This document shows, one piece after another, positions 9,740 through 34,016 of a stretch of DNA of 35,066 bases. A program made the position numbers and the translations under genes. The DNA is taken from positions 1 through 35,066 of the forward strand of contig MWYV01000065.1 in the NCBI GenBank assembly GCA_002050435.1. Reading direction: 5' to 3'. The notes below the pieces were generated by a model that searched no databases, was not told where the DNA came from, and saw nothing but the letters and a program-made list of their open reading frames with translations. Position 1 is the first letter of the stretch. Each line of letters begins with the position of its first letter. The stretch is from Chitinophagales bacterium 33-2. Lineage in GTDB: Bacteria; Bacteroidota; Bacteroidia; Chitinophagales; Chitinophagaceae.

Positions 9740-10549
9740 TTACTGATTTTCTTTTAGGTTGCGGAGGAGTTCAACGACTCCGGTAAAATCATTTGTAGTA
9801 GCATAAGCCGCGATCTTTTGCTGTAACTGTTTTTTTTCCTGCTGGCAGATCAGTTCTTCTTTAACGCAATTAAAAAACTCAAATAGTTTTTTTGACATTC
9901 TCATGGCCTGGCCATCACCATCGCTGTACACCATATATTTATCAACAGGAATGGAAGTAATGACAGTGGCTTTTTCTTTTGCCTCCGAAGGAACGAAGGC
10001 GTTTGCAAAGCTGATGTCCTCCATTTCCAGGTTGTTGATCATTGAGGTTCTTTTCCTTTTATCCCGGGGATTGTAATAATAATTTGCAGTTTGAATAGGA
10101 TCATTTCCTGCATTTACAGCAGTTACCACTTCAATGCTGTTATAATCTGCAGCTCCATCTTCAATTGTTCCAGGAGCATCATTTACGGGTTGTGAAGGCT
10201 CAGTGGTTGTTTTTGATGGGGGCAGCGCTGTTATTATATTTCCGGAATCTGCAGGTTGGTTATCAGCCAGTAAAAAATAGGTAGTAAGCGCCAACACCAG
10301 AATGGCAGCTGCAGCGGCATATTTAGACAATGAGAAGATCCGGGTGGTTTTTTGTTGTTTGGGAACGGTGGCGAGGTTTTCTTCAATTTTATTCCAAAGT
10401 CCAGTGGGCGGAGTGGCTTCGTAATCAGCAAATTTATTTAAGAGCATTCCATTCAATCCTTCATCCAGTTGATTGCTGATTGCTTCCCATGCGGCTGCCG
10501 GCGGCTCTGGAGCATATTGCAATAATTTTTTCTGAAGTGCTGAATTCAT
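9740..10549 (-). CDS. Membrane protein, probable anti-sigma factor
   Basis: A 269-residue protein with one predicted membrane helix at about 77-95 (KYAAAAAILVLALTTYFLL). The cytoplasmic N-terminus holds two copies of a short motif, PEPPAAAWEAISNQLDE (15-31) and TPPTGLWNKIEENLA (46-60). The outer part is Thr/Asn/Pro-rich and ends in a polar helical domain (EELICQQEKKQLQQKI, then AAYATTNDFTGVVELLRNLK). There is no zinc-finger HxxxCxxC. The role rests on context: its ATG overlaps the stop of the ECF sigma gene by 4 bases, and this layout is usual for sigma and membrane anti-sigma pairs in Chitinophagaceae. The signal it senses is unknown. Confidence 0.65.
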   Translation of the reverse strand: MNSALQKKLLQYAPEPPAAAWEAISNQLDEGLNGMLLNKFADYEATPPTGLWNKIEENLATVPKQQKTTRIFSLSKYAAAAAILVLALTTYFLLADNQPADSGNIITALPPSKTTTEPSQPVNDAPGTIEDGAADYNSIEVVTAVNAGNDPIQTANYYYNPRDKRKRTSMINNLEMEDISFANAFVPSEAKEKATVITSIPVDKYMVYSDGDGQAMRMSKKLFEFFNCVKEELICQQEKKQLQQKIAAYATTNDFTGVVELLRNLKENQ

Positions 10550-11049
10550 TTTGACTTAGTATTTCTTTGCTGATCGATGTGTTTTTTTACAAGTTCCTGT
10601 AAAATCTGTTTTGCTCTTGATAGCTGCGATTTGCTGGTTCCTTCGCTGATTCCTAATTCCTCGCCGATCTGCCGGTGGGTGTATCCTTCCACTACATACA
10701 TATTGAAAACCGTACGATAACCTGGTGATAATTGCTGAACAAGTTCAATAATATCTTTCTCGGCAAGACTGTCAAGCACCGAAAGATATTTCCCTTCCAT
10801 TGTATTTTCTTCATAATCAGTAATTGGCTGCAGGTAGATCTTCTTCCTGTAATGTTCAATCGCTGTATTTACAAAGATCCTTCTGATCCAACCTTCGAAA
10901 GAACCTTCCCTTCTGAAACTACCTACTTTATTAAATACTTTAATAAATCCTTCCTGTAGAATATCTTCTGCTTCTTCCACGTTACCTGCATAACGCAGGC
11001 AAACTCCATACATTTTAGGTGCAAACTGCTGGTAGAGTTCTTTCTGCAT
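10546..11049 (-). CDS. ECF-type RNA polymerase sigma factor (start uncertain)
   Basis: Directs RNA polymerase to specific promoters. Region 2 is clear (FAPKMYGVCLRYAGNVEEAE, then DILQEGFIKVFNKVGSFR, GSFEGWIRRIFVNTAIEHYR). Region 4 is also clear (LSPGYRTVFNMYVVEGYTHR, then QIGEELGISEGTSKSQLSRA). The given start (ATG 11047-11049, 167 residues) is the first ATG in frame but is probably not the true one. The frame stays open upstream to 11125 and encodes DSDLIEGCILGDRR just before the Met, the usual beginning of region 2.1 in this group. No ATG, GTG or TTG lies in that extension; only CTG, ATA or ATC could start it. An ATG at 11093-11095 (minus strand) would be in frame if one base were added after ATGA. 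It is coupled to the anti-sigma gene downstream; rdgB is 79 bases upstream. Confidence 0.9.
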   Translation of the reverse strand: MQKELYQQFAPKMYGVCLRYAGNVEEAEDILQEGFIKVFNKVGSFRREGSFEGWIRRIFVNTAIEHYRKKIYLQPITDYEENTMEGKYLSVLDSLAEKDIIELVQQLSPGYRTVFNMYVVEGYTHRQIGEELGISEGTSKSQLSRAKQILQELVKKHIDQQRNTKSK

Positions 11050-21495: not shown

Positions 21496-21570
21496 GGGAG
21501 TTTAGCTCAGCTGGTTCAGAGCATCTGCCTTACAAGCAGAGGGTCGGCGGTTCGAACCCGTCAACTCCCA
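21496..21570 (+). tRNA. tRNA-Val (anticodon UAC)
   Basis: A full 75-base cloverleaf. The acceptor stem pairs GGGAGTT (21496-21502) with AACTCCC (21563-21569), with discriminator A 21570. The D-arm contains AGCTCAGCTGGTTCAGAGC. The anticodon stem is TCTGC/GCAGA with loop CTTACAA, giving UAC at 21531-21533, which reads GUA and other Val codons. The T-arm has GGTTCGAACCC. The CCA end is not encoded. It is followed by its own terminator. Confidence 0.97.
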
Positions 21571-22398: not shown

Positions 22399-22669
22399 TA
22401 CTTCAGTTAAGGACAAATGAATTGTTTTTTACGCAAGAGCGTTAAAAAGGTACAGGATTGCGACTTTTGCTATCTCCATGCAGGCATAGCGCCTGCCTGA
22501 TAGCAGCAAGGTTTCCTGGAACCAAAAAAAACTTTATTTGTTGCTTTTTGCAAGTATATAGCAGATTATTTTCCTTGATAATTCATTTAGCTAATGTTGC
22601 GCCCGGCACAACTATTACTGCTATCTGCTTTTTGTATCAATAAAACTTATTTTACTTATGTTTCATTAT
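22399..22669 (+). promoter_or_regulatory. Long leader upstream of the TonB receptor, with a two-part hairpin
   Basis: No gene fits in these 271 bases. At 22468-22505 TGCTATC pairs with GATAGCA around an inner GCAGGC (22480-22485) and GCCTGC (22491-22496) stem with a 5-base loop. TAGCAG occurs again at about 22559 and its complement CTGCTA at about 22620, so alternative pairings are possible. No B12 box (GCCACTG) or TPP box was seen. It could be a cis-regulatory RNA for the receptor; this is inference. Confidence 0.35.
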
Positions 22670-24931
22670 ATGAATAAGATCAAATATTTTTTGGTCTTGT
22701 GCTTCCTGCTGGCTGGTAATTTGGCATATACCCAAAATACACTCAAAGGAATTTATGTTGTAAATACAGTATCAAAAATTCCTGTACCCGACGCCTTTGC
22801 ACAAAGCGAAGATTTAACCTTCAATGCTTCAGCCGATGAAAATGGCTTTATCAGTTTTAAAAATTTGCCGTCTTCAATAAATAAATTAAATATTACCCGG
22901 ATAGGGTTTGAGCCAAAAAGAATTGACCTGAGCACACTAATCATTTCAGGTAATTCAGCTATCGTTTATTTTGATAACAAAGTTTCCAGCCTCGATGAAG
23001 TAAAGGTTTTGGCAACAGCGAATAATGGTGTTTTTAAAACCATCAGCGACCTTGATATTCACCTTCGACCTATCAATAATTCGCAAGAGATTTTAAGAAT
23101 GGTTCCCGGGTTGTTTATTGGCCAACATGCCGGAGGCGGTAAAGCAGAACAAATATTTATAAGAGGTTTTGATATTGACCACGGCACTGATATTAACCTG
23201 ACTGTAGATGGAATGCCAGTTAATATGGTAAGCCATGCTCATGGCCAGGGCTATGCTGACTTGCATTGGCTAATTCCTGAATTGATAGACAAAGTAAACT
23301 TTAATAAGGGTCCATACTTTGCAAATAAGGGTAATTTTACCACCGCAGGTTTTGTTGAGTTTAAAACGAAAGACTATTTGGAAAATAACTTTTTAAAAGT
23401 TGAAGGTGGACAGTTTAATACTTATCGTACAATTGTAGGGATAAATCTTTTAAAACCACAAGGAGACAGGAGAAACCAAAGTTTATACTTTGCAGGTGAA
23501 GGTTCTTTTACTAAAGGATTTTTTGAGAGTCCGCAGGATTTTAGCCGCTTTAATGGTACATTAAAGTACCACGGCAGTATCAGCAACAACAGTACTTTAA
23601 CGACAACCTTAACAGGTTTTACAAGCCAGTGGAATGCATCGGGTCAAATACCGGACAGAGCCGTTGAAAGTGGAATGGTTGGTTTTTATGGAGCTATTGA
23701 TGATACGGAAGGCGGTAAAACATCAAGATATAATGCTAGCATAGAATTATTGAGCAACCTTAATAGTGGCGGTGCAGTTCGTAATCAATTTTTTTATAGT
23801 AAGTATAAGTTTGAACTGTACTCAAATTTTACCTTTTTTAAAGAAGATCCAATAAACGGCGACCAGATAAGGCAAAGGGAAGACAGGAATATAATTGGAT
23901 ATAATGGCTCTTATAAAAAAGAGTTTTTGTTAGGTAACATCAAGACAGAGACTAAAGCCGGCGTTCAGTTAAGATATGATGATGTGAATGACATTGAACT
24001 AACCCGAACAAAAAGCAGAACTTTCAATATCAACAGCATCATGCTCGGCGATGTGAATGAATTCAATGCTGGTGCTTATTGGGCGCAACGGTTTTCTGTT
24101 TCTAAAAAATTGGATATTACCGGGGCATTAAGAGTAGATTATTTTACTAATAAATACAATGATCAATTAGCCGCAGAGCAACTACAATCCTACTCAACAA
24201 TCGTAAGCCCTAAATTAAATTTTAATTATAGGGTAAATGATAAGGTGCAATTGTACTTCTATAATGGAAGAGGATTTCATAGCAACGATACAAGAGTAGC
24301 AGTGCAACAGGAGGGAAGAAAGGTTTTACCACCGGCTTATGGAACAGATTTTGGAGGTGTTTTTAAAATAGGCAAAAATTTAGTGTTACAATCAGCCTTG
24401 TGGTATTTGTGGCTTGACCAGGAATTTATTTATGTTGGCGATGAAGGCATTGTAGAACCTGGAGGTCAAACAAAAAGATATGGCTTTGATCTTTCAGCGA
24501 GGTATGAAGTTATAAATAACCTGTTTGCTGATGTTGATGTAAGTTTTGCAAATCCAAGAGCATTAGATGTACCGAAATCGGAAAGCTTTTTACCATTATC
24601 CCCACGCTTTTCAAGTGTTGGCGGCTTAACCTATAGAAAACAATACGGTTTGAATGGCAGCTTGCGTTACCGTTTTATGGATGACAGACCAGCCAATGAA
24701 GACAACAGCACTATAGCAAATGGATACTTTGTAACGGATGCATCAATCAACTATACAAAGAAAAGGTGGGAAGCAGGAATCGCTATTCAGAACTTGTTTG
24801 ATGTAAAATGGAAAGAAACACAATTTGAAACAGAGAGCAAATTGCAGAACGAACCTGCTCCGGTTTCTGAAATTCACTTTACACCCGGAACACCATTTTT
24901 TGCCAGAGTAAGTTTTACAGTGTTTTTTTAA
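22670..24931 (+). CDS. TonB-dependent outer-membrane receptor
   Basis: A 753-residue receptor for energised uptake across the outer membrane. I used ATG 22670 (MNKIKYFLVLCFLLAGNLAY then TQ), a normal signal peptide; an in-frame ATG at 22658 adds four residues. Residues about 22-105 form a carboxypeptidase-like regulatory domain. The plug follows with EILRMVPGLFIGQHAGGGKA, then EQIFIRGFDIDHGTDINLTV, DGMPVNMVSHAHGQGYADLH and WLIPELIDKVNFNKGPYF. The barrel ends in FARVSFTVFF with a C-terminal aromatic residue. The SHAHGQGYADLH stretch puts His residues at the plug. It is not a SusC-type protein: it is shorter and has no SusD partner. The ligand is unknown; the His-rich neighbour suggests a metal or metal chelate. 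Confidence 0.92.
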   Translation: MNKIKYFLVLCFLLAGNLAYTQNTLKGIYVVNTVSKIPVPDAFAQSEDLTFNASADENGFISFKNLPSSINKLNITRIGFEPKRIDLSTLIISGNSAIVYFDNKVSSLDEVKVLATANNGVFKTISDLDIHLRPINNSQEILRMVPGLFIGQHAGGGKAEQIFIRGFDIDHGTDINLTVDGMPVNMVSHAHGQGYADLHWLIPELIDKVNFNKGPYFANKGNFTTAGFVEFKTKDYLENNFLKVEGGQFNTYRTIVGINLLKPQGDRRNQSLYFAGEGSFTKGFFESPQDFSRFNGTLKYHGSISNNSTLTTTLTGFTSQWNASGQIPDRAVESGMVGFYGAIDDTEGGKTSRYNASIELLSNLNSGGAVRNQFFYSKYKFELYSNFTFFKEDPINGDQIRQREDRNIIGYNGSYKKEFLLGNIKTETKAGVQLRYDDVNDIELTRTKSRTFNINSIMLGDVNEFNAGAYWAQRFSVSKKLDITGALRVDYFTNKYNDQLAAEQLQSYSTIVSPKLNFNYRVNDKVQLYFYNGRGFHSNDTRVAVQQEGRKVLPPAYGTDFGGVFKIGKNLVLQSALWYLWLDQEFIYVGDEGIVEPGGQTKRYGFDLSARYEVINNLFADVDVSFANPRALDVPKSESFLPLSPRFSSVGGLTYRKQYGLNGSLRYRFMDDRPANEDNSTIANGYFVTDASINYTKKRWEAGIAIQNLFDVKWKETQFETESKLQNEPAPVSEIHFTPGTPFFARVSFTVFF

Positions 24932-25094: not shown

Positions 25095-25742
25095 TTAACC
25101 CACCACACGCTCTATGGTCCAATACAAAGCCACCATTGCAATTAAAATTGAAATAGGATATATAACCCATTTCCTATATTCCTTTTTCTTACCGAAAGGA
25201 CGAATCAGTAAAAAGTAAACCATCAGTATAATGACAAATTGTCCAATTTCCACCCCCAGATTGAACGAAACGATTGAAGTGAAAAAGCGATTTCTTGGTA
25301 AGCCGATTTCATTTAGCGCAGCAGCAAAACCAAGTCCGTGGATTAACCCAAATAAAAAGATGATCAATAGCCGCCAGACTTTTACCTTATTAAAAAAAAT
25401 ATTTTCAAGCGCCAGTAAAAAAATTGAAAAAGCAATAATGGGTTCTATAATTTCTGAAGGAAGTATAATTATGTCCTTCATACTCAAAGCAAGCGTAATT
25501 GAATGGGCTACCGTGAAGGCAGTTGCCTGCAGAATGATCTTTTTAACATCTGAATTTAATAAACTAAGAGCGATTATGAAAAGTATATGATCCAGTCCTA
25601 AGGGTATTATGTGCTCTATTCCCAAAACCAAATAATACCAAATTACATTTCCAGCCGTTTCTCTTTCCATGATGACATTTGGATTATGGCCCCAGGCAGG
25701 AATAGAGAGAGCCAGCAGAATTACAATTGCCCCTAACTTCAT
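25095..25742 (-). CDS. HupE/UreJ-family membrane protein
   Basis: A 215-residue inner-membrane protein. ATG 25740-25742 is chosen because MKLGAIVILLALSIPAWG is a signal peptide; cleavage would leave HNPN at the mature end. Family motifs are the paired GIEH (41-44) and GLDH (49-52), FTVAHS (76-81), HGLGFA (135-140) and FNLGVEIGQ (160-168). His and Asp residues lie inside predicted helices, and about six helices follow the signal. HupE/UreJ proteins occur with Ni or Co enzymes and some act as metal permeases; no hydrogenase or urease gene is here, so the cargo is unknown. It follows the TPR gene on the same strand after a 380-base gap with a large palindrome. Confidence 0.88.
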   Translation of the reverse strand: MKLGAIVILLALSIPAWGHNPNVIMERETAGNVIWYYLVLGIEHIIPLGLDHILFIIALSLLNSDVKKIILQATAFTVAHSITLALSMKDIIILPSEIIEPIIAFSIFLLALENIFFNKVKVWRLLIIFLFGLIHGLGFAAALNEIGLPRNRFFTSIVSFNLGVEIGQFVIILMVYFLLIRPFGKKKEYRKWVIYPISILIAMVALYWTIERVVG

Positions 25743-26122
25743 AATTGTAAAGTTTCTTTGAGAGAGCAATTTATATTAAATAATTAAAAGCAAGTTTTAA
25801 GAAAAGAAGTGCCAGGAGTAAATGGATTTCCTGAACCGGTCCGGGTTCATTCATCAAACGGCTTTTCTCTGTATAATTACTAAATGAATAATTCACCTTA
25901 GAAGGTGACCTTTTTTAAGAGAAATAATTATTTCTTTTAAAAAAGGGAGTAGGTAACCAATAAAAGGGGATCAGGATAATTAATAAATCCTGTACAATTC
26001 ATAAGAAGTTGTTATCGAACAACAGATATGCTCATTTAATTACCTGATCACCTGAAAAAATTGTATTAACCCGTTTCTATCAGATAACGGACAATCAGTT
26101 GAATAGGTAGCATAGCACTGAA
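25743..26122. repeat. Gene-free stretch with a 38-base near-perfect palindrome
   Basis: No gene is seen in these 380 bases. The main feature is 25909-25946: outer arms CCTTTTTTAA (25909-25918) and TTAAAAAAGG (25937-25946), one G/T pair, and a perfect 16-base palindrome AGAAATAATTATTTCT (25920-25935) in the centre. Immediately before it TCACCTT (25893-25899) and AAGGTGA (25902-25908) form another inverted repeat. The AT-rich palindrome could fold as a hairpin in RNA from either strand or be a symmetric protein-binding site in the upstream region of hupE. The rest (25947-26122) shows nothing I can name. Confidence 0.6.
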
Positions 26123-27460
26123 CTAAAAACCATTCATGGCAATACTCACTTCATCTTTTAACTCCGGATAAAAATAGAAGTCAGGCTGACGGATATCCTG
26201 CATGAGCTTTTTTGCAATATCTACAGCTCCGGCATTTGCATGGATAATTCCTGCACGGTGTAAAAATTCAGGATGTTTATAATTCGTACGCATCGCCATC
26301 TGGATATGTTTTAATGCATTTTTATGATCCCCGGTTTTAAAATAAATCCATCCCAGGGTATGATTTACATCAATATTATCGGGCCTGATGCCATATTCTT
26401 TCCTTGCAGATTCCAATGCTTTGGATGGTTTGCTTTGTAACAGGTAAACATTTGCCAAATCAATTCCAGCATGGTGATTGTTCCCGGTTTCTGTTTCATC
26501 TTCTTTTGTCAGTTCAACAACTATAGATTCAAGTAATTTTTCAGCCTGGGTATTTTTTCCGGTTTGGATGTAAATCTTAGCCAATTGTTCTTTAAATCCA
26601 AAATCATTACCAGCTTCAATAGCCTGGAGGCATAAGGCTGTTGCTTTTTCATAATTTTTTTGAGACATGGCTATCCGGCTCAAACCTGCTAAAGCATATG
26701 CATATCCAGGTCTTTCAGTTAATGCAATTGTATAATGCATTTCGGCATGCTTCATTTGATTGGTATTTTCATAAAGTTGTCCGAGCTGAATCCGACACCA
26801 CTCCGTACTTTCTTCGCCATAAGCTCCGGCACCAACTGCCATTTTCATTGCTTCAATGGCACCATCCATGTCACCATGAATTTCTCTTAAATAAGCAACG
26901 CGGGAATAAGAACGAATATCAGGTCGGATCGAAATCATTTTATCTGAATATTCTACTGCTTTTTCATAATTTCCCATTTCCACGTTTCCATCTATGAGTA
27001 TTCCGTAAATAAATGCACTATAAGGATTGATTTTAACAGCAATATCTGCGGTTTCCAAAGCTTCCTGGAAATGATGTTGTGAAAGTTGTATTAAGGCTTT
27101 TAAAAGAAGCGCATTAAAATCCTTTGGGTTATTAACGATTACTTTTTCAACATAATGCAATGCTGCAGCATTATAATATTCATAATTACCGGTAATTCTG
27201 GCCTCCTGCACGTATAATGAAGCTAAAGAAAGGGCAGTTTTTGCATCGTCCGGTTTATCCCTGATGACCCTGATCATTTTATTGCCATTCTCTTTTATAG
27301 TTGCCCATTCGGGAAGTAAGGCGGAAGGTCCCTCCCTATCCTTCAACGGGTAAAAGGCCACTACATCGCCTTTAATTTCTTTATTGTATTTCAATATAAC
27401 AAAAGCAGTGAAACCGCAAAATATCAGGATTAAAATAAGAGGAGTAAATTTTCTTTTCAT
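26123..27460 (-). CDS. Membrane-anchored tetratricopeptide-repeat protein
   Basis: A 445-residue protein with an N-terminal signal anchor (KRKFTPLILILIFCGFTAFV, residues 2-21); the rest faces the periplasm. TPR helix pairs run from about residue 70 to 430: ALSLASLYVQEARITGNYEY, FIYGILIDGNVEMGNYEKAV, CRIQLGQLYENTNQMKHAEM, LAGLSRIAMSQKNYEKATAL, LAKIYIQTGKNTQAEKLLES, DLANVYLLQSKPSKALESAR and HTLGWIYFKTGDHKNALKHI. A helical scaffold of this kind probably holds other proteins of the cluster. It lies 58 bases after the DUF4331 pair on the same strand, separated by a terminator hairpin, so its level may be set by read-through. Confidence 0.88.
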   Translation of the reverse strand: MKRKFTPLILILIFCGFTAFVILKYNKEIKGDVVAFYPLKDREGPSALLPEWATIKENGNKMIRVIRDKPDDAKTALSLASLYVQEARITGNYEYYNAAALHYVEKVIVNNPKDFNALLLKALIQLSQHHFQEALETADIAVKINPYSAFIYGILIDGNVEMGNYEKAVEYSDKMISIRPDIRSYSRVAYLREIHGDMDGAIEAMKMAVGAGAYGEESTEWCRIQLGQLYENTNQMKHAEMHYTIALTERPGYAYALAGLSRIAMSQKNYEKATALCLQAIEAGNDFGFKEQLAKIYIQTGKNTQAEKLLESIVVELTKEDETETGNNHHAGIDLANVYLLQSKPSKALESARKEYGIRPDNIDVNHTLGWIYFKTGDHKNALKHIQMAMRTNYKHPEFLHRAGIIHANAGAVDIAKKLMQDIRQPDFYFYPELKDEVSIAMNGF

Positions 27461-27475
27461 ATAAAATATTTAAAA

Positions 27476-27508
27476 AATGATGGACCGGCCAAAGCCAGGT
27501 CCATCATT
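27476..27508 (-). terminator. Terminator after the DUF4331 pair
   Basis: AATGATGGACC (27476-27486) and GGTCCATCATT (27498-27508) form a perfect 11-bp stem with an 11-base loop. On the minus strand it is followed by TTTTTAAATATTTT. It lies between DUF4331 copy 1 and the TPR gene and could reduce, but not abolish, transcription into the latter. Confidence 0.8.
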
Positions 27509-27518
27509 ATAATTATAG

Positions 27519-29582
27519 TTATTGCTTCACAATACGTATTGATTGCTTCACTTCACCATTACTAACAGCTTTTACAAAATATACACCTTTTGCTAAAGAA
27601 GTAGAATTGAAAATAACACTGTGTATTCCCTGGTCCTGCGTACCATTTACTAATACGGAAACACGATTACCTGAAGCGTTATAGACTTCAATGTTAACCT
27701 GGCTTCTTTCAGCTAATCTGTAACGAATAGTTGTATTGTTTTCAAATGGATTAGGCGCAGACATCATAAATACTTCAGGTGTACTAATTGCCATTTGGCT
27801 TGGTGCCAGCAAATTAGGTTGCATATATCCTGTTGCCAATCCGGCGCATTTGCAGGTACCTGACCATGGCGTTTGGACAAAAGGAAATGAAGTTTTAAAT
27901 GTTGTATCATTTTTTTCAACCAAAGTTGTATACCCTAAAACCAAATTGAGCCTAGCAGGATTTTCATATGGAAATCCAATTGCCGCTAATATTACGCCGC
28001 TCACAGTCTGCAATTCAATACGTGTTACATCATCTTCAAGTCTTCTTCCATTCGGAAAGCCATCCATATTTGGAATGAATTGAAGGTTCGTGTTTGTATT
28101 GAACATCGGGTCAGTAAGTCCCAGTACTGCAGCCTGAATCAATCCAAGAGAACTGAACTTCGGATCTGTACGGGGTGTTGGGGGCACTGCCATATTCAGG
28201 CGAAGCATATCACCACCATTTGGAAGGAAGTTGTTGACGAAAGGTTTACCTGCTGCTAAAGGATTACCATTCTTGCCTGTAGCTAACTGATAAGGCCTTA
28301 GGTTAGGCACACCTGTTCTGAAGATCGGATAAAGATCAACAGATCGAGGTTTCGCAGGACCAGGCAATAACACTTTGCCAAAAATGGCATCGTCAAGTGC
28401 CGTACCTGCAACAGCTGGTGTACCTTTTAGAGGAAATAAACCATTCTTAGTATTTCTAAAATCATAAGTTCCTAATGAATTGGTTTGAATTCTTAGTGGT
28501 GCAAATGCTGGAATAGCTGGCCCAAATTGGCTATCATCCATATACAATGCAAGTTCAGGATTGTATAAATTATCATCCAGGATTTGGTTAAAGCTAAAGA
28601 TTCCATCATTCAAAGCAGCTTCCTGATATGGTGTAAGTGAATTCCATAAATCCTTTTCACCTATAGGATTAACTACCTCATTTGTTAATGGCATTCCTAA
28701 CCTTGATACCTGAACCCAGGCACCAGTAGCAGTTTCTGTTCCATTAGTATTGAAAGTAGTTATTTTTCTCCGACTTGCAGATGCCCATACGCCGATAACA
28801 TACTCAGGATCAAGAATGCTTGTTGCCTGGCTAACTGGTTTTCCCTGTTTTTGTAAAGTGGAAATATCAATCTGCAACGCAATCGTAGATACATTTTTGC
28901 ATTTTAATCCATCAGCAGGCACACCAGATGTAGTTGCGGGTGCATCGCCAAGGTCAAAAATACCTCCAAGGTCTACAAAGAAGGGATCATCCACAGGGCC
29001 ACAAAAAACCTTTTCACCTGAAGACGCATTTGTAATTGCGTTTTGCATCAAGGTATTATAATTCGGAGCATTTAATCCAACAGGACTACTGATGGAGCGT
29101 GGACCAACATTTGGAGGTGGCACTTTTCCATTAGAGATAATTGTTTGAAAGTTGATACCACCATCCATACTTCTTTCAAGCGTATAAGTGGTTTTCAAAT
29201 TTTCTTTACCCAGCCTGATAAGGAAGAAAGTTGTCGGGTCTTCGTTTACTCTTTTAAAGGTAAAACGGTAAACGATATCGTCTCCTGAAGCATAGGTATT
29301 ATTGGCAACATTATTATCAATATGGATCTCATACCTGACATTTTCATTGAAATGATAATAGTTAGGGCCTCCCTGAGGTAACTGGAAGGGGATATAATTG
29401 GCAATAATAGTGATCTTGTTAGGATCGTCAGGGTTACGGAATGCATACAGGTCTGTGTTATCAGCTGTTGGATCCGCAAGTAACAATGGCGCCTCGCGAT
29501 GACTGGAAGCAAATACTTGAATGGGGATTGTTTGTAGCAACATTACACCCATTAGTATTAGTGCATATATTTTTCTTTTCAT
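27519..29582 (-). CDS. DUF4331 protein with type IX secretion sorting domain (copy 1)
   Basis: A 687-residue secreted protein. The signal peptide (KRKIYALILMGVMLLQTIPI, then QVFA) is followed directly by the family hallmark SSHREAPLLLADPTADNTDL then YAF. Further conserved stretches are KITIIANYIPFQLPQGGPNY, FCGPVDDPFFVDLGG, ALQIDISTLQKQGKP, GKPFVNNFLPNGGDMLRLNM, SLGLIQAAVLGLTDPMFN and FPNGRRLEDDVTRIELQ. The last 80 or so residues form a Por-type C-terminal sorting domain (APNPFENNTTIRYRLAERSQ, then GVYFVKAVSNGEVKQSIRIV), so the protein should cross the outer membrane by the type IX system and be displayed or released. DUF4331 has no established function. It lies 21 bases after the paralogue and surely shares its message. 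Confidence 0.9.
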   Translation of the reverse strand: MKRKIYALILMGVMLLQTIPIQVFASSHREAPLLLADPTADNTDLYAFRNPDDPNKITIIANYIPFQLPQGGPNYYHFNENVRYEIHIDNNVANNTYASGDDIVYRFTFKRVNEDPTTFFLIRLGKENLKTTYTLERSMDGGINFQTIISNGKVPPPNVGPRSISSPVGLNAPNYNTLMQNAITNASSGEKVFCGPVDDPFFVDLGGIFDLGDAPATTSGVPADGLKCKNVSTIALQIDISTLQKQGKPVSQATSILDPEYVIGVWASASRRKITTFNTNGTETATGAWVQVSRLGMPLTNEVVNPIGEKDLWNSLTPYQEAALNDGIFSFNQILDDNLYNPELALYMDDSQFGPAIPAFAPLRIQTNSLGTYDFRNTKNGLFPLKGTPAVAGTALDDAIFGKVLLPGPAKPRSVDLYPIFRTGVPNLRPYQLATGKNGNPLAAGKPFVNNFLPNGGDMLRLNMAVPPTPRTDPKFSSLGLIQAAVLGLTDPMFNTNTNLQFIPNMDGFPNGRRLEDDVTRIELQTVSGVILAAIGFPYENPARLNLVLGYTTLVEKNDTTFKTSFPFVQTPWSGTCKCAGLATGYMQPNLLAPSQMAISTPEVFMMSAPNPFENNTTIRYRLAERSQVNIEVYNASGNRVSVLVNGTQDQGIHSVIFNSTSLAKGVYFVKAVSNGEVKQSIRIVKQ
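28012..28100. repeat. Near-identical 89-base patch shared by the two DUF4331 genes (copy in gene 1)
   Basis: These bases match 29809-29897 in the second gene with two mismatches, whereas flanking parts of the genes differ far more. The patch encodes the FPNGRRLEDDVTRIEL region and the NTNxNLQFIPNMDG stretch. It points to recent gene conversion or strong constraint. Confidence 0.75.
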
Positions 29583-29603
29583 GATTGTAATTTCTGAGGT
29601 TAA

Positions 29604-31388
29604 TTATTGATTTTTAACAATAGTGCCTCTCCATGGCGTTTGTTCATAAGGAAATACTGCCTTGAAAGTCGTATCGTTTTTTTCCACACCAGTAGAGTAT
29701 TGCAACGTGTTAATAAGCCTGTTGGTAATAGGGGTAGGTGAGGTGTTTGGATTATAATCATCGTAAAATAATCCGAGTGCAAAAAGAACGATTCCCCCGA
29801 CGGCCTGTAATTCAATACGTGTTACATCATCTTCAAGTCTTCTTCCATTCGGGAAGCCATCCATATTTGGAATGAATTGAAGGTTCATGTTTGTATTGTA
29901 CATTGGGTCAGTAAGTCCAAGAACAACAGCTTGAACCAGTCCAAGTGAACTGAACTTTGGATCATTACGTTGTGTAGGAGGCACTGCCATATTAAGGCGC
30001 AGCATATCACCACCATTTGGAAGAAAATTGTTGACAAATGGTTTACCTGGAGCCAAAGGATTATTATTCTTACCTACAGCTAATTGGTATGGTCTGAGAT
30101 TGGGAACTCCGGTATTAAAAAGTGGATACAAATCAACCGAGCGCGGTTTGCCCGGCCCAGGTAATAGTAAATTTCCAAATAATGCATCGTCAAGAGCAGT
30201 ACCGGCAACAGCAGGTGTTCCTTTTAAACCAAACAATCCCATTTTGCCATTTCTAAAGTCAAACATTCCTAAAGAATTACTTTGAACTCTTAGCGCATTA
30301 AACGCGGGAACAGCTGAAGCAAACTGGGTTTCATCCATGTACAATGCCAACTCAGGATTATAAAAATTATTTCCAAAAGTTCCAATGTTAGCAAGATCCT
30401 GGTAAGGTGTCAGAAAATTCCATTGATCTTTCATTCCAATAGGAGTAATTACTTCATTGGTTAAAGGCATACCAATACGGGAAATCTGAACCCACTCTCC
30501 ACTTTGAGAAAATGTACCACCACCTGTTGGGTCAAACGGAGACCCTCCATTTGCGCTATTTAATGTTTTGGTTTTCTGGCGACTTGCAGAAGCCCATACA
30601 CCAATTACATAATCAGGATCAAGGATATTAACTGCCTGGCTAACTGGTTTGCCGGCTTTTTGAAGCGTAGAGATGTCAATTTGCAATGCAATTGTATGCA
30701 CATTGTAACGTGCCAATCCATCGCGGGAAGCACTGTTCTGACGAGGCAGATCTGCAAGGTCAAAAGCTCCACCAAGGTCTACAAAAAATGGATCATCAAC
30801 TGGACCACAAAAAACAGTTTCGCCTGAGCTTGCTGTTGTGATGGCATTTTGCATTAAACTATTGTAACTCGGGGCATTTAACCCAACAGGTAATTCAATA
30901 CTTCTTGGTCCAATATTATTGGGAGGAACTATGCCATTTGCAATGACCATTTGAAAACTTGCGCCTCCATTAATACTTCTTTCCAACTTGTAGGTTGTTT
31001 TGAGGTTTTGTTTGCCCAGGCGGATGTTAAAAAATGTTGTGGGATCTTCATTCACCTGTTGGAAGGTGAAGCGATAAATTATATCATCCCCGGTTGTGTT
31101 GATATTATTATCAATATGAATCTCATACCTCGTATTCGGTTCAAAATTGTAATAATTTGGACCACCCTGCGGCAATTCAAAAGGAATGTAATTCGCAATA
31201 ATGGTGATCTTGTCTGGTTTGTCGGGACTTCTGAAAGCATACAAATCTGTATTATCAGAAGTAGGCATATCCGCAATCAACGGTGCCTCCCTGTGACTGG
31301 AAGAAATTAATGCTACCGCAAGCGCCAAACCACTAAACGGAAGCACTAAATATCCCAGTACATTCGTAATTGTAAATTTTTTTTTCAT
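29604..31388 (-). CDS. DUF4331 protein without sorting domain (copy 2)
   Basis: A 594-residue exported protein, paralogous to the next gene over nearly its whole length. The signal segment (GYLVLPFSGLALAVALIS) is followed by SSHREAPLIADMPTSDNTDL then YAF. Conserved stretches are KITIIANYIPFELPQGGPNY, FCGPVDDPFFVDLGG, ALQIDISTLQKAGKPVSQAV, PRSVDLYPLFNTGVPNLRPY and FPNGRRLEDDVTRIELQ. It ends at FPYEQTPWRGTIVKNQ, exactly where copy 1 continues into a Cys-containing linker and the type IX domain. Copy 2 should therefore stay in the periplasm or be anchored by its N-terminus. It also has an insert (SANGGSPFDPTGGGTFSQS) not found in copy 1. It is the first of the DUF4331 pair; the esterase gene ends 150 bases upstream. 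Confidence 0.9.
   Translation of the reverse strand: MKKKFTITNVLGYLVLPFSGLALAVALISSSHREAPLIADMPTSDNTDLYAFRSPDKPDKITIIANYIPFELPQGGPNYYNFEPNTRYEIHIDNNINTTGDDIIYRFTFQQVNEDPTTFFNIRLGKQNLKTTYKLERSINGGASFQMVIANGIVPPNNIGPRSIELPVGLNAPSYNSLMQNAITTASSGETVFCGPVDDPFFVDLGGAFDLADLPRQNSASRDGLARYNVHTIALQIDISTLQKAGKPVSQAVNILDPDYVIGVWASASRQKTKTLNSANGGSPFDPTGGGTFSQSGEWVQISRIGMPLTNEVITPIGMKDQWNFLTPYQDLANIGTFGNNFYNPELALYMDETQFASAVPAFNALRVQSNSLGMFDFRNGKMGLFGLKGTPAVAGTALDDALFGNLLLPGPGKPRSVDLYPLFNTGVPNLRPYQLAVGKNNNPLAPGKPFVNNFLPNGGDMLRLNMAVPPTQRNDPKFSSLGLVQAVVLGLTDPMYNTNMNLQFIPNMDGFPNGRRLEDDVTRIELQAVGGIVLFALGLFYDDYNPNTSPTPITNRLINTLQYSTGVEKNDTTFKAVFPYEQTPWRGTIVKNQ
29809..29897. repeat. Near-identical 89-base patch shared by the two DUF4331 genes (copy in gene 2)
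   Basis: Partner of 28012-28100, offset 1797 bases, in direct orientation. Recombination between the two would fuse the genes and drop one copy. Confidence 0.75.
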
Positions 31389-31538
31389 TGTTTAAATTTT
31401 AATTTGTTTCTCCATTTCGGGCGGATTAACGCTTATCACTTCATTATTTTACAAGGGGGGAGGATTATCATTTTCATAGAAATCTATTCATGAAAAAGCT
31501 TAAGGCATTAATGTTACAAGGGCAATTGTAATTTTTAA

Positions 31539-32366
31539 TCAACGCTTATGCTGCAACATCCATTCATAGATGTTCATTCCGTTTTCTCTAAAACCGGGTT
31601 CTAAAGCCCTGGTCCAGGCATCATGGCCGCCACTGGGCCAAATAGTAATTTTTGATTTTTTTAAAGGGTTATATGAATTAATTTTTGAGACAAAATTTTT
31701 GGCAGCGGCTATACTAAATACCACATCATCATTTGAGTGGAATGCCCAGACAGGTAAGTTTGAACCTGCTATCAGGTTACACTTGTTGTTGATTTCAAAA
31801 TCAAGGGAAACCCCGGCCATAGGCACAATGGCAGCTATAGAAGAAGTATAGTCAGCACCAAGGTCACAGGAAAGGGTGCCACCTATGCTTAACCCAGAAA
31901 TGTAGATCCTGGTGGAATCGATTCTGTATTTGTTTTTTGCATAATCAATGCTTTCTTTAATGCTGGAGGTATTAGGCCAATACCGAAGCTGGGGAGTAAA
32001 AACAATAAAATTGAAGACCTCGCCGTTGATTTTAAGATTTGTGGGAAATATACCTTCATCAATCAATTGCGCAGGACCATCCTTTAATAGTAGGTGAAGG
32101 TCATTAGTTCCATTACCAAACTGGCCTGCACCTGGAATAAATACCAATAGGGGATGCCGTTTTGTGTTGCTATCATAATCAGATGGCAATCCAACATAAT
32201 AACCCCCTACAACATTATTTATGGGAAAACTAACAGGTTTTAACTTCATCGTTACTGGAGGCAATTGGGGAGGCTCGGGCTTAATAATTTCAACATCCTC
32301 TTTTTTACAGGACATAAAAAAGCAAATGCTTGCAGTGATGATAGTAATTATGATGTTCTTCGTCAT
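31539..32366 (-). CDS. Lipoprotein alpha/beta hydrolase (esterase/depolymerase-like)
   Basis: A 275-residue lipoprotein: signal MTKNIIITIITASICFFMSC with acylated Cys20, then an acidic, Pro-rich linker (EDVEIIKPEPPQLPP). The alpha/beta hydrolase domain shows HPLLVFIPGAGQFGNG (oxyanion region), the nucleophile elbow GLSIGG with Ser160, the acid Asp213 or Asp214 in FHSNDDVVF and His248 in PSGGHDAW. This order fits the LpqC/poly(3-hydroxybutyrate)-depolymerase-like esterases that are usually exported. The natural substrate is unknown. It is on the same strand as, and 150 bases upstream of, DUF4331 copy 2, so co-transcription is possible. No promoter box was found upstream of it. Confidence 0.85.
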   Translation of the reverse strand: MTKNIIITIITASICFFMSCKKEDVEIIKPEPPQLPPVTMKLKPVSFPINNVVGGYYVGLPSDYDSNTKRHPLLVFIPGAGQFGNGTNDLHLLLKDGPAQLIDEGIFPTNLKINGEVFNFIVFTPQLRYWPNTSSIKESIDYAKNKYRIDSTRIYISGLSIGGTLSCDLGADYTSSIAAIVPMAGVSLDFEINNKCNLIAGSNLPVWAFHSNDDVVFSIAAAKNFVSKINSYNPLKKSKITIWPSGGHDAWTRALEPGFRENGMNIYEWMLQHKR

Positions 32367-32960: not shown

Positions 32961-34016
32961 TTACTGGCTTTTTTCAGATGAAGTTTGCACCTCCTGTTTT
33001 TTAATATAAACTTCCTGAAGTACCACCATCACGATAGCTGTCAGTGCTGTTGCCAGCACAAGGCCCCATCCACCTATTAAAACACCCATAACCAATTGCG
33101 CAATAATCATCAGCGCTGGTGGGATGTGGATCAGCTTTTTTTGTATCTGTGGCATGATCAGATTACTTTCCAGTAGCTGAATCAGCATGTACAAACCTAA
33201 AATCAATAATGCCATAGTCGGTCCTTCCATAAAACCGATCAATACTGCTGGAATCAGCGCTAATAAGGGACCGAAATTCGGCACAAAGCTTAAAAGCCCG
33301 GCAATGAGCGCAAGAACAAGCCACATGGGTACCCCAAGAATGGCCAAACCAATAGCTGTAAGAGCAAAAACCACCAGCATGGAAAATATCATTCCTTTTA
33401 GCCATTTTGTTAATGTGCTTCCGATTTTATCTATCACTTCTTCTCCTTTTGCCTGGCTATTTTTCGGTATTAACTTTATGAAGCCTTTTTTATAGATCTT
33501 TGGTGATGCTGTAAAAAAAAGTCCCAGGAAAAGCACCACATAAATATCTCCAAGCACACCAAAAGTTGTTCTAAAAAACGACTGTAAAACAGCAGAAGAT
33601 TTACTAAAGCCATCACCTGAGGATACCCTATTCATAATCTTTTGTCCAATTGGATGCGCATTCACCTTTTGTTTAAGATCATCAACTGCTGAGGGTAAAG
33701 AATCGCTTAGTTGCTGCACCTGTTGCTGGATACGATCACCAGTAAACCATAAAAACAAAATGAGCAGAAGGATTGAGCCCACTGTAGCGATAACCAGGCT
33801 CACTTTATTAGGGATCCCTAACTTTCTGTTCAAAAGGCTGCTAAGTCCATGAAAGTAAAGCGCGATAAGAATACCCGCTAATACCAACAGCAAAACACTG
33901 AATATCGCTTTCAGAATCCACAGTACTACTATAAATAAGCTAACAATTGCTGCTACAATCCATACCTTTTTTTGAAAGCTGATGTTCATATTTTTATTGG
34001 TTTCCATTACATCCAT
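32961..34016 (-). CDS. AI-2E family transporter (PerM-like permease)
   Basis: A 351-residue polytopic inner-membrane protein. Two helices at the N-terminus (KVWIVAAIVSLFIVVLWILK; IFSVLLLVLAGILIALYFHG) and a third near 70-90 are followed by a soluble coiled segment (QQQVQQLSDSLPSAVDDLKQ). The C-terminal half holds the family core: LTKWLKGMIFSMLVVFALTA, LIAGLLSFVPNFGPLLALIP and LIQLLESNLIMPQIQKKLIH, with the PxxGPxL and ESNxIxPxxQ signatures. The family exports or takes up small molecules (AI-2 for TqsA, Na+ or H+ in others); the substrate here cannot be read. ATG 34016 is used, but ATG 34007 or 33989 are also possible starts. Confidence 0.9.
   Translation of the reverse strand: MDVMETNKNMNISFQKKVWIVAAIVSLFIVVLWILKAIFSVLLLVLAGILIALYFHGLSSLLNRKLGIPNKVSLVIATVGSILLLILFLWFTGDRIQQQVQQLSDSLPSAVDDLKQKVNAHPIGQKIMNRVSSGDGFSKSSAVLQSFFRTTFGVLGDIYVVLFLGLFFTASPKIYKKGFIKLIPKNSQAKGEEVIDKIGSTLTKWLKGMIFSMLVVFALTAIGLAILGVPMWLVLALIAGLLSFVPNFGPLLALIPAVLIGFMEGPTMALLILGLYMLIQLLESNLIMPQIQKKLIHIPPALMIIAQLVMGVLIGGWGLVLATALTAIVMVVLQEVYIKKQEVQTSSEKSQ

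Follow-up and report, generated by a model that had tools for sequence, protein, structure and literature searches.

A candidate nickel-uptake relay that joins DUF4331 proteins to a TonB-dependent receptor and a HupE permease

We propose that a cluster of genes for DUF4331 proteins, a TPR protein, a HupE permease, and a TonB-dependent receptor encodes a nickel-uptake relay that runs from the cell surface to the cytoplasm. We put the probability of this reading at roughly 55%. The cluster lies in a stretch of 35,066 nucleotides from Chitinophagales bacterium 33-2 (contig MWYV01000065.1; hereafter, the window). It is an instance of a recurrent module that comprises one or two copies of DUF4331, a TPR protein of a specific family, a TonB receptor, and, in some genomes, HupE. 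DUF4331 and the TPR protein are the core of the module, and HupE is optional (it is beside DUF4331 in 10 of 48 genomes). Three sequence features point to metal capture: the predicted mature DUF4331 proteins start with X-X-His, the predicted mature permease starts with His1, and the plug of the receptor has five invariant histidines.

Five of the genes in the window are on the minus strand, and an earlier note on this DNA had described all five; profile searches confirmed their domains. In order of transcription, they encode an esterase-like lipoprotein (31539-32366; Abhydrolase_2, 4e-8); DUF4331 copy a (29604-31388; PF14224, 4e-127; no NCBIfam match); DUF4331 copy b (27519-29582; PF14224, 8e-129); a TPR protein that has a hydrophobic stretch at its N-terminal end (26123-27460; matching TPR families); and a HupE_UreJ_2 permease that is predicted to be in the inner membrane (25095-25742 with an ATG start, or to 25769 with the TTG start of the ORF call; PF13795, 4e-43, 147.4 bits against a cut-off of 24.5). 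The DUF4331 profile scores 431 and 425.3 bits (cut-off 27), and its positions 1-421 are covered in both copies. The earlier note was right to group DUF4331, TPR, and HupE, but it had included the esterase and overlooked the TonB-dependent receptor (22658-24931, plus strand; Plug domain PF07715). The receptor gene is convergent with the HupE gene, and 163 bp separate their ends. We judge the esterase to be outside the module because none of 127 other loci has a homologue (0 of 47 drawn loci and 0 of 80 named loci). The TPR and HupE genes are 353 bp apart in the window (380 bp with the ATG start); in 23 of 28 same-strand pairs, the window's among the 28, the spacing is -43 to 52 bp.

Within the window's phylum, homologues of the TPR protein were found in 41 of the 47 drawn loci and 63 of the 80 named loci. 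The corresponding numbers are 22 and 42 for the receptor and 8 and 24 for HupE; the PF13795 profile places HupE beside DUF4331 in 9 of the drawn loci. (Because the named loci were retrieved as the 80 best matches to a pattern in which SSHREAP is included, they are not independent evidence for that motif.) Across 48 genomes with DUF4331, the HupE profile has 41 matches (one below the cut-off). HupE is within 8 kb of DUF4331 in 10 of these genomes, where about 0.15 would be expected by chance if genomes are 4.3 Mb. The receptor subfamily is present in 30 of the 48 genomes versus 24 of 347 others, and in 24 of the 48 it is within 12 kb of DUF4331; our tests of co-occurrence and association, here and below, ignore phylogeny. 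The TPR proteins form a specific family, with H129, F131, D157, E161, G163, R187, and G196 invariant across 104 aligned sequences. Adhaeribacter swui has two plasmid copies of DUF4331-TPR-receptor.

Plasmids from Pseudomonadota, Actinomycetota, and Cyanobacteriota (the last in one record) also carry DUF4331-TPR-permease. In Actinomycetota and Cyanobacteriota, the permease is NicO in place of HupE. We examined 23 of 33 plasmid records from other phyla and found a gene in the TPR position in 18 and HupE or NicO in 14, with several of the query sequences taken from the very loci that were searched. Pfam identified NicO or HupE_UreJ_2 in four of four permeases from these phyla and TPR in five of the six proteins tested; the TPR identity of the Lichenicola protein (which has no Pfam match) and of those from Comamonadaceae, Variovorax, and Paraburkholderia is based on position, size, or mutual similarity. 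In the Pseudomonadota loci with DUF4331 and TPR, the HupE proteins have an N-terminal extension with His1, and in Actinomycetota and Cyanobacteriota it is NicO that bears this extension; His1 is present in all 10 of the extended permeases that we aligned. In five records from Rhodobacterales, DUF4331 adjoins type II secretion genes, and neither TPR nor permease was found within the examined stretch beside it. The earlier note had proposed a lack of recurrence of the DUF4331-TPR-HupE neighbourhood in other genomes as grounds for refutation; the neighbourhood recurs in the window's phylum and in three further phyla, so its reading is not refuted on that count. Of the envelope module that it envisaged, recurrence and the link to metal transport stand, without the esterase.

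DUF4331 is a large family (at least about 8000 scored candidates per query), and our literature search found no paper that names it. SSH directly follows the predicted signal peptide in 359 of 360 DUF4331 proteins (120/120, 120/120, and 119/120 in three sets, each being the best matches of one query, with the window's own protein in the first set); in six of the 360, the annotated start lies beyond where a signal peptide would be. In both of the window's copies, SSHREAP comes after the predicted signal peptide. In 24 of 25 diverged loci of the split type, SSH is replaced by ADH or GDH, and the DUF4331 protein of Nostoc begins with SDH. X-X-His is also kept where REAP changes to IDAP, and it is preceded by A or S at a plausible predicted cleavage site. 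A crude, hand-made cleavage predictor, which gets roughly half of the sites in DUF4331 wrong, puts histidine at position +3 in 64 of 116 DUF4331 proteins versus 3 of 297 other secreted ORFs. The mature N-terminus, as predicted, fits the pattern of the ATCUN motif (amino-terminal NH2-X-X-His), which is reported to bind Cu(II) and Ni(II) (PMC12509749), so it is a putative site for either ion. In the available part of that paper, ATCUN-like histidine motifs of PcoB from Caulobacter serve copper efflux.

One of the two DUF4331 copies is probably on the cell surface. Copy b ends in a type A sorting domain for type IX secretion (TIGR04183, 45.7 bits, cut-off 23), copy a has no such tail, and the genome encodes the PorU sortase (1365 bits, cut-off 420). 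These results support the surface placement of one copy that the earlier note had suggested. Among 30 proteins that we picked by hand from the named loci, the tail is present in all 20 of the single or second copies (including 10 of 10 second copies in other loci) and in none of 10 first copies in other loci.

DUF4331 and the TPR protein might have another role in the envelope, as a surface structure, an enzyme, or a stress protein under an ECF sigma factor. SSHREAP would then be a structural N-terminal strand, and the metal permease and the receptor would be frequent but separate neighbours. This would fit the low share of genomes in which HupE adjoins DUF4331 (10/48), the genes for ECF sigma factors and anti-sigma-like proteins near DUF4331 in many loci, and the invariance of residues beyond the histidine in the long form of DUF4331 (R33, E34, A35, and P36); also, we obtained no fold assignment for DUF4331. 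However, a permease is kept across four phyla even as HupE and NicO are swapped, X-X-His survives the change from REAP to IDAP, and the linked receptor carries an invariant cluster of histidines. We consider a role of this kind quite unlikely.

In the window's HupE, the better start is the ATG at 25742, which gives a predicted cleavage site of ...IPAWG|HNPN and a mature protein that begins with His1. We aligned 29 of the 33 HupE ORFs near DUF4331, and His1 is invariant in these. Another three (from genomes G140, G200, and G280) have neither a signal peptide nor His1, and one over-extended ORF was set aside. The same crude predictor places histidine at +1 in 18 of 26 HupE proteins versus 5 of 297 other secreted ORFs. 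The earlier note had remarked on the histidines near both mature N-termini (SSHREAP in DUF4331 and HNPN in HupE), and these prove to be among the most conserved features of the system. Nickel transport is a reported function of HupE/UreJ relatives (PMC2667541; PMC12537917).

In the plug of the receptor, His 157, 175, 193, 195, and 203 are invariant in 62 of 62 aligned sequences, the window's included, as is His 541 further on (we left out 4 short ORFs of 66). The window's receptor lacks His1. It scores below the cut-offs of the models for TonB-dependent siderophore receptors (TIGR01783, 77.4 bits versus 223.5) and vitamin B12 receptors (TIGR01779, 33.5 bits versus 599.7).

We favour nickel because members of this receptor subfamily are encoded in urease operons and are overrepresented in genomes with urease. 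In one locus (L180), the receptor gene is behind ureE, ureF, ureG, ureD, and a urea transporter; two others (L181 and L182) have the homologous run of genes; and urease alpha is just upstream in all three genomes. In another genome (G316), the receptor is 7 kb from urease. Overall, the receptor is present in 9 of 12 genomes with urease versus 45 of 383 others (p = 1.4e-6), where urease was counted at E < 1e-50 and 20 further genomes with weak partial matches at E ≤ 1e-3, the window's among them, were not counted among the 12.

The same relay could carry copper: X-X-His and His1 would hold Cu(II), the receptor would take copper chelates, and HupE_UreJ_2 would be a copper permease. An ATCUN site suits either metal, and the Cu2+ preference that was measured for anglerases, in the accessible part of PMC12537917, counts against nickel. 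Also, the window's genome has no full-length match to urease by profile search (the partial match has E = 2e-5 and 26 bits, which is 3 over the cut-off, and covers 38 of 121 positions) and no match to NiFe-hydrogenase at E ≤ 1e-10. Against copper stand the presence of the receptor in urease operons and its enrichment in urease genomes, and the permease in Actinomycetota and Cyanobacteriota matches NicO, which Pfam describes as high-affinity nickel transport. We view copper as unlikely. Further observations count against the nickel relay: HupE adjoins DUF4331 in just 10 of 48 genomes and has no signal peptide or His1 in three of these, the window's receptor lacks His1, and no TPR or permease gene was found in the five Rhodobacterales stretches. 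NiFe-hydrogenase is, if anything, rarer alongside DUF4331 (3 of 48 genomes versus 133 of 347 others, the latter mostly from one family, f18). A search for nickel superoxide dismutase matched 0 of 80, but the controls were silent as well. A riboswitch search yielded no riboswitch: its matches were a tRNA in the window and a single tRNA in a set of eight loci, and eight further loci gave none. Promoter and terminator patterns are near the level expected by chance.

Or the module might export metal, with HupE/NicO-type proteins and surface chelators serving to exclude an excess. Some proteins of the NicO family are exporters, such as RcnA, and the two plasmid copies in A. swui could be viewed in this light, as could the reported increase of a HupE/UreJ protein of Sphingobium under excess nickel (PMC5557971). 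Given that the receptor subfamily adjoins urease genes, detoxification seems very improbable. Furthermore, TonB receptors are importers.

In the nickel-uptake relay that we prefer, type IX secretion would display DUF4331b on the outer surface, and DUF4331a, without a tail, would remain in the periplasm or be just loosely held. Removal of the signal peptide would free Ser-Ser-His, which would capture the metal. The receptor, powered by TonB, would admit the metal or a chelate of it via the five-histidine plug; the TPR protein would hold or receive the periplasmic partner; and the HupE permease, with His1 at its N-terminus, would bring the ion into the cytoplasm. The gene order, its recurrence, the N-terminal motifs, the invariant histidines of the receptor, the sorting tail, and the location of receptor genes in urease operons are observed, whereas we infer metal binding, the identity of the metal, the direction of transport, the cleavage sites, the order of hand-over, and the role of the TPR protein. 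A broader idea, which we offer tentatively and would not bet on, is that DUF4331 proteins act as protein-based metallophores across four or more phyla, with the freshly cut X-X-His N-terminus as the metal site. Different bacteria would use unrelated machineries for their display (a class F sortase, type II secretion, or type IX secretion), and histidines at N-termini and in the plug would hand the metal on in turn, first from DUF4331 to the TonB receptor and then to a His1 permease (HupE or NicO).

If the metal-capture role is correct, then it would assign a function to DUF4331. It would also define a class of receptors for nickel or copper that is recognisable by the five-histidine plug, identify partners of the anglerase-type permeases that were described recently, and provide a case of a metal site in a surface protein that is made by signal-peptide cleavage. 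The role of DUF4331 can be tested directly with one purified protein.

The closest known systems are the anglerases, Ang-1/Ang-2-HupE/UreJ-2, which have in common with the window's protein the HupE_UreJ_2 permease and a proposed role in metal capture and import, and whose N-terminal His1 after a signal peptide resembles the predicted mature end of the window's HupE; His1 of the Ang-HupE/UreJ-2 proteins is reported to bind Cu2+ and Ni2+ (Franco Cairo et al. 2025, PMC12537917). Unlike these, the window's HupE has no Ang domain, which is a separate extracytoplasmic beta-sandwich between His1 and the permease. Its HupE domain begins at residue 46 of the 224-residue ORF and His1 is residue 28, and because only 17 residues lie between them, we do not class it as an anglerase. 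The available portion of PMC12537917 does not name DUF4331 or TPR proteins as partners. Sequence searches of solved structures with one permease or with a profile of ten sequences gave no match, to the anglerase structure PDB 9GCE or to any other, in a set that may not include 9GCE. Rhizobium HupE, from the HupE/UreJ secondary nickel transporters, resembles the window's HupE in the membrane domain (PF13795/PF04955) and in being a single-component permease, whereas the window's HupE carries a predicted N-terminal His1, has genes for DUF4331, TPR, and a TonB receptor as its linked neighbours, and has no hydrogenase or urease genes adjoining it in the window. The receptor shares the Plug domain with the metallophore and vitamin B12 receptors CntO and BtuB and has weak similarity to both (8e-4 and 1.7e-6, respectively), but it differs in its five invariant plug histidines and is far under the NCBIfam cut-offs for siderophore and B12 receptors. 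In the hemophore system HasA-HasR, an exported capture protein feeds a TonB receptor. By analogy, the relay would follow the same logic, with a proposed capture site at the mature N-terminus and display by type IX secretion as the differences.

The minus strand of the window between 25095 and 32366 holds five genes, which encode an esterase-like lipoprotein, two DUF4331 proteins (DUF4331a, 29604-31388, and DUF4331b, 27519-29582), a TPR protein and a HupE_UreJ_2 permease; gene calls and profile matches agree with the earlier note on all five. DUF4331b has a type A sorting domain for type IX secretion (T9SS), and the TPR protein has a hydrophobic stretch at its N-terminus. DUF4331a and DUF4331b are separated by 21 bp, and DUF4331b and the TPR gene by 58 bp. 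The gap between the TPR gene and HupE is 353 bp if HupE starts at a TTG or 380 bp if it starts at the ATG at 25742, which is likelier. A TonB-dependent receptor is encoded on the plus strand (22658-24931), and 163 bp separate its 3' end from that of HupE. An Rfam scan of the window found no riboswitch and a single tRNA gene, upstream of the receptor (21496-21570). An AI-2E family transporter gene is near DUF4331 in the window (32961-34016) and on an Adhaeribacter plasmid (L079, 18151-19227); no homologue was seen in 127 other loci. Also, 16 kb from the DUF4331 module is an ECF-type sigma factor (10546-11049) that shares a 4-base overlap with a minus-strand ORF of 269 residues (9740-10549) with no Pfam match.

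We sampled 395 genomes evenly across the window's phylum, taken as Bacteroidota on the basis of named relatives, and 48 of them (including the window's own) have matches to PF14224 (DUF4331). Around DUF4331 in the other 47 genomes, we searched as much as 20 kb of sequence and found a homologue of the window's TPR protein in 41, of the receptor in 22, and of HupE in 8. In 36 of the 47, the TPR gene immediately follows DUF4331 on the same strand, within 1.5 kb. With the PF13795 profile, 10 of the 48 genomes (families f1, f9, f31, f35, and f50) have HupE no more than 8 kb from DUF4331, versus about 0.15 genomes expected by chance. The 80 best pattern matches are nearly all from Bacteroidota (Chitinophagaceae, Saprospiraceae, Dyadobacter, Hymenobacter, Pontibacter, and others); 63 of these loci include the TPR homologue, 42 the receptor, and 24 HupE, with many of the contigs being short. 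Counting the window's pair, 23 of 28 same-strand TPR-HupE pairs are spaced by -43 to 52 bp. The esterase, which the earlier note placed in series with the other genes, has no homologue in any of the 127 other loci (47 drawn and 80 pattern matches), so we do not consider it a member of the module.

Of the 47 drawn loci, 25 (L034-L058) have DUF4331 split into two adjacent short genes (for example, L036 9430-10713). The C-terminal half resembles a lipoprotein, and the TPR gene follows, as does the receptor in many of these loci. Many of the split-type loci, and Pseudoalteromonas loci, have an ECF sigma factor and an anti-sigma-like gene near DUF4331 (L036 7893-9208, L080 7591-8807, and L201 4433-5637), which suggests envelope-stress or metal-responsive control; no such pair adjoins DUF4331 in the window. 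Two plasmids of Adhaeribacter swui (L079 and L089) each have the DUF4331, TPR, and receptor genes, and the annotation of one plasmid divides the receptor into two ORFs.

A search across Bacteroidota and other phyla, as the earlier note had proposed, showed that DUF4331, a TPR protein, and a permease recur together in four phyla. With tblastn, DUF4331 was found in 33 plasmid records, and we examined 23 of these: 18 have a gene in the TPR position after DUF4331, and 14 have a HupE or NicO permease. Pfam identified TPRs in five of six proteins tested (from Streptomyces, Nostoc, Pseudoalteromonas, Marinobacter, and Miltoncostaea); the protein in this position in Lichenicola had no TPR match. Because Pfam also assigned the permeases of Pseudoalteromonas and Marinobacter to HupE_UreJ_2 and those of Streptomyces and Nostoc to NicO, the triad of DUF4331, TPR, and permease is present in Bacteroidota, Pseudomonadota, Actinomycetota, and Cyanobacteriota (one record), and its permease can belong to either family. 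Three NicO permeases (L084 12014-13666, L088 9471-10961, and L198 9892-11772; the family was tested with Pfam for the first two) have an extracytoplasmic extension with His1 and an EF-hand-like loop, and this extension aligns with that of the HupE proteins.

The earlier note remarked on a histidine near the mature N-termini, and this proved highly conserved. The motif SSH is present in 120/120, 120/120, and 119/120 DUF4331 proteins from three query sets, and the single exception starts downstream of the motif. The preceding residue is S (115) or A (5) in the first set, A (115), S (3), G (1), or T (1) in the second, and A in 119 (mostly SAA or SSA) in the third. In 24 of 25 split-type proteins, the N-terminal half is predicted to start with ADH after A or GDH after S, even though the residues that follow change from REAP to IDAP. 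The Nostoc protein has SDH. Because X-X-His is kept while its neighbors vary, positions 1-3 of the predicted mature protein fit the pattern of an ATCUN site, an amino-terminal motif for Cu(II) or Ni(II) (as defined in PMC12509749). Of 33 HupE ORFs near DUF4331, 29 were aligned and all of these have His1 directly after the predicted cleavage site; three have neither a signal peptide nor His1, and one over-extended ORF was left out. Ten of ten aligned N-terminally extended permeases (HupE and NicO) from other phyla are predicted to start with His after A, and they share an invariant D and E in the EF-hand-like loop. When a single crude cleavage rule was run on all ORFs, His was at +1 in 18/26 HupE proteins and 18/51 receptors and at +3 in 64/116 DUF4331 proteins, versus 5/297 (+1) and 3/297 (+3) for other secreted proteins. 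The window's receptor has no His at its predicted mature start.

The export machinery encoded next to DUF4331 differs between lineages, which suggests that DUF4331 acts extracellularly. Among loci picked from the 80 pattern matches, the type A T9SS tail is present in 10/10 second copies and 10/10 single copies of DUF4331 and in 0/10 first copies. In the window the tail is on DUF4331b, and the window's genome encodes the PorU sortase. In five Rhodobacterales records (L081, L085, L091, L193, and L194), type II secretion genes adjoin DUF4331, with a prepilin peptidase on its other side in four; the fetched stretches contain no TPR or permease gene. Two Streptomycetaceae records have a sortase gene within the cluster, which in one is annotated as class F and lies between DUF4331 and the TPR gene.

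The receptor links these genes to urease. Across 62 sequences, His 157, 175, 193, 195, and 203 of the plug are invariant, as is His 541 beyond it, and all 62 have the motif SHxHGxGxxDxH. This subfamily (plug query, E ≤ 1e-30) is present in 54 of the 395 genomes: 30/48 with DUF4331 versus 24/347 without (Fisher test ignoring phylogeny, p = 3e-18). In 24 genomes, the two genes are within 12 kb. We fetched 20 loci with the receptor away from DUF4331, and three of these share a run of homologous ORFs that ends with the receptor (L180 452-8870, L181 2154-8739, and L182 1682-8737). In L180, Pfam identified ureE, ureF, ureG, ureD, and a urea transporter, and urease alpha is just upstream of each of the three stretches, so these receptors are candidate nickel receptors that are independent of DUF4331. 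In another genome (G316), a copy of the receptor is 7 kb from urease. The other fetched receptor loci have no common metal partner, except for L183 (5505-9023), where the receptor directly adjoins a HupE-like protein of 428 residues that starts with HPVPNS after IFS. This resembles the arrangement of anglerases (proteins with His1 domains), and the fetched L183 stretch has no DUF4331. Of the 12 genomes with urease (E < 1e-50), 9 have the receptor, versus 45 of the 383 others (p = 1.4e-6), and 5 have DUF4331, versus 43/383 (p = 0.009). Hydrogenases are not enriched with DUF4331 (3 of its 48 genomes).

We propose that the module is a nickel uptake system. Which genes make up the set, their motifs, the T9SS sorting tail, and the link to urease are direct observations, from which we infer metal binding, the identity of the metal, and the order and direction of its transfer. 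DUF4331 would capture nickel at the cell surface, the TonB receptor would import it, the TPR protein may take part in the periplasmic hand-over, and the His1 permease would let it enter. The main rival is that the same module handles copper, because the anglerase domains measured in PMC12537917 prefer Cu2+, and because the window's genome (90% complete) has only a partial match to the urease profile and no NiFe-hydrogenase was found in it.

His1 domains on HupE/UreJ-2 permeases were described in 2025 in the anglerase paper (PMC12537917), which reports that the most frequent neighbors of these permeases are proteins of unknown function; sections 7 and 8 of that paper name neither DUF4331 nor TPR. 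The literature library searched returned no paper on DUF4331 (PF14224). Within reach of these searches, what is new is the proposed partnership of DUF4331 and a specific TPR family with the His1 permeases, along with the form of the module that has NicO, the receptor with histidines in its plug, and X-X-His at the N-terminus. TonB-linked metal acquisition is already known as a kind of system.
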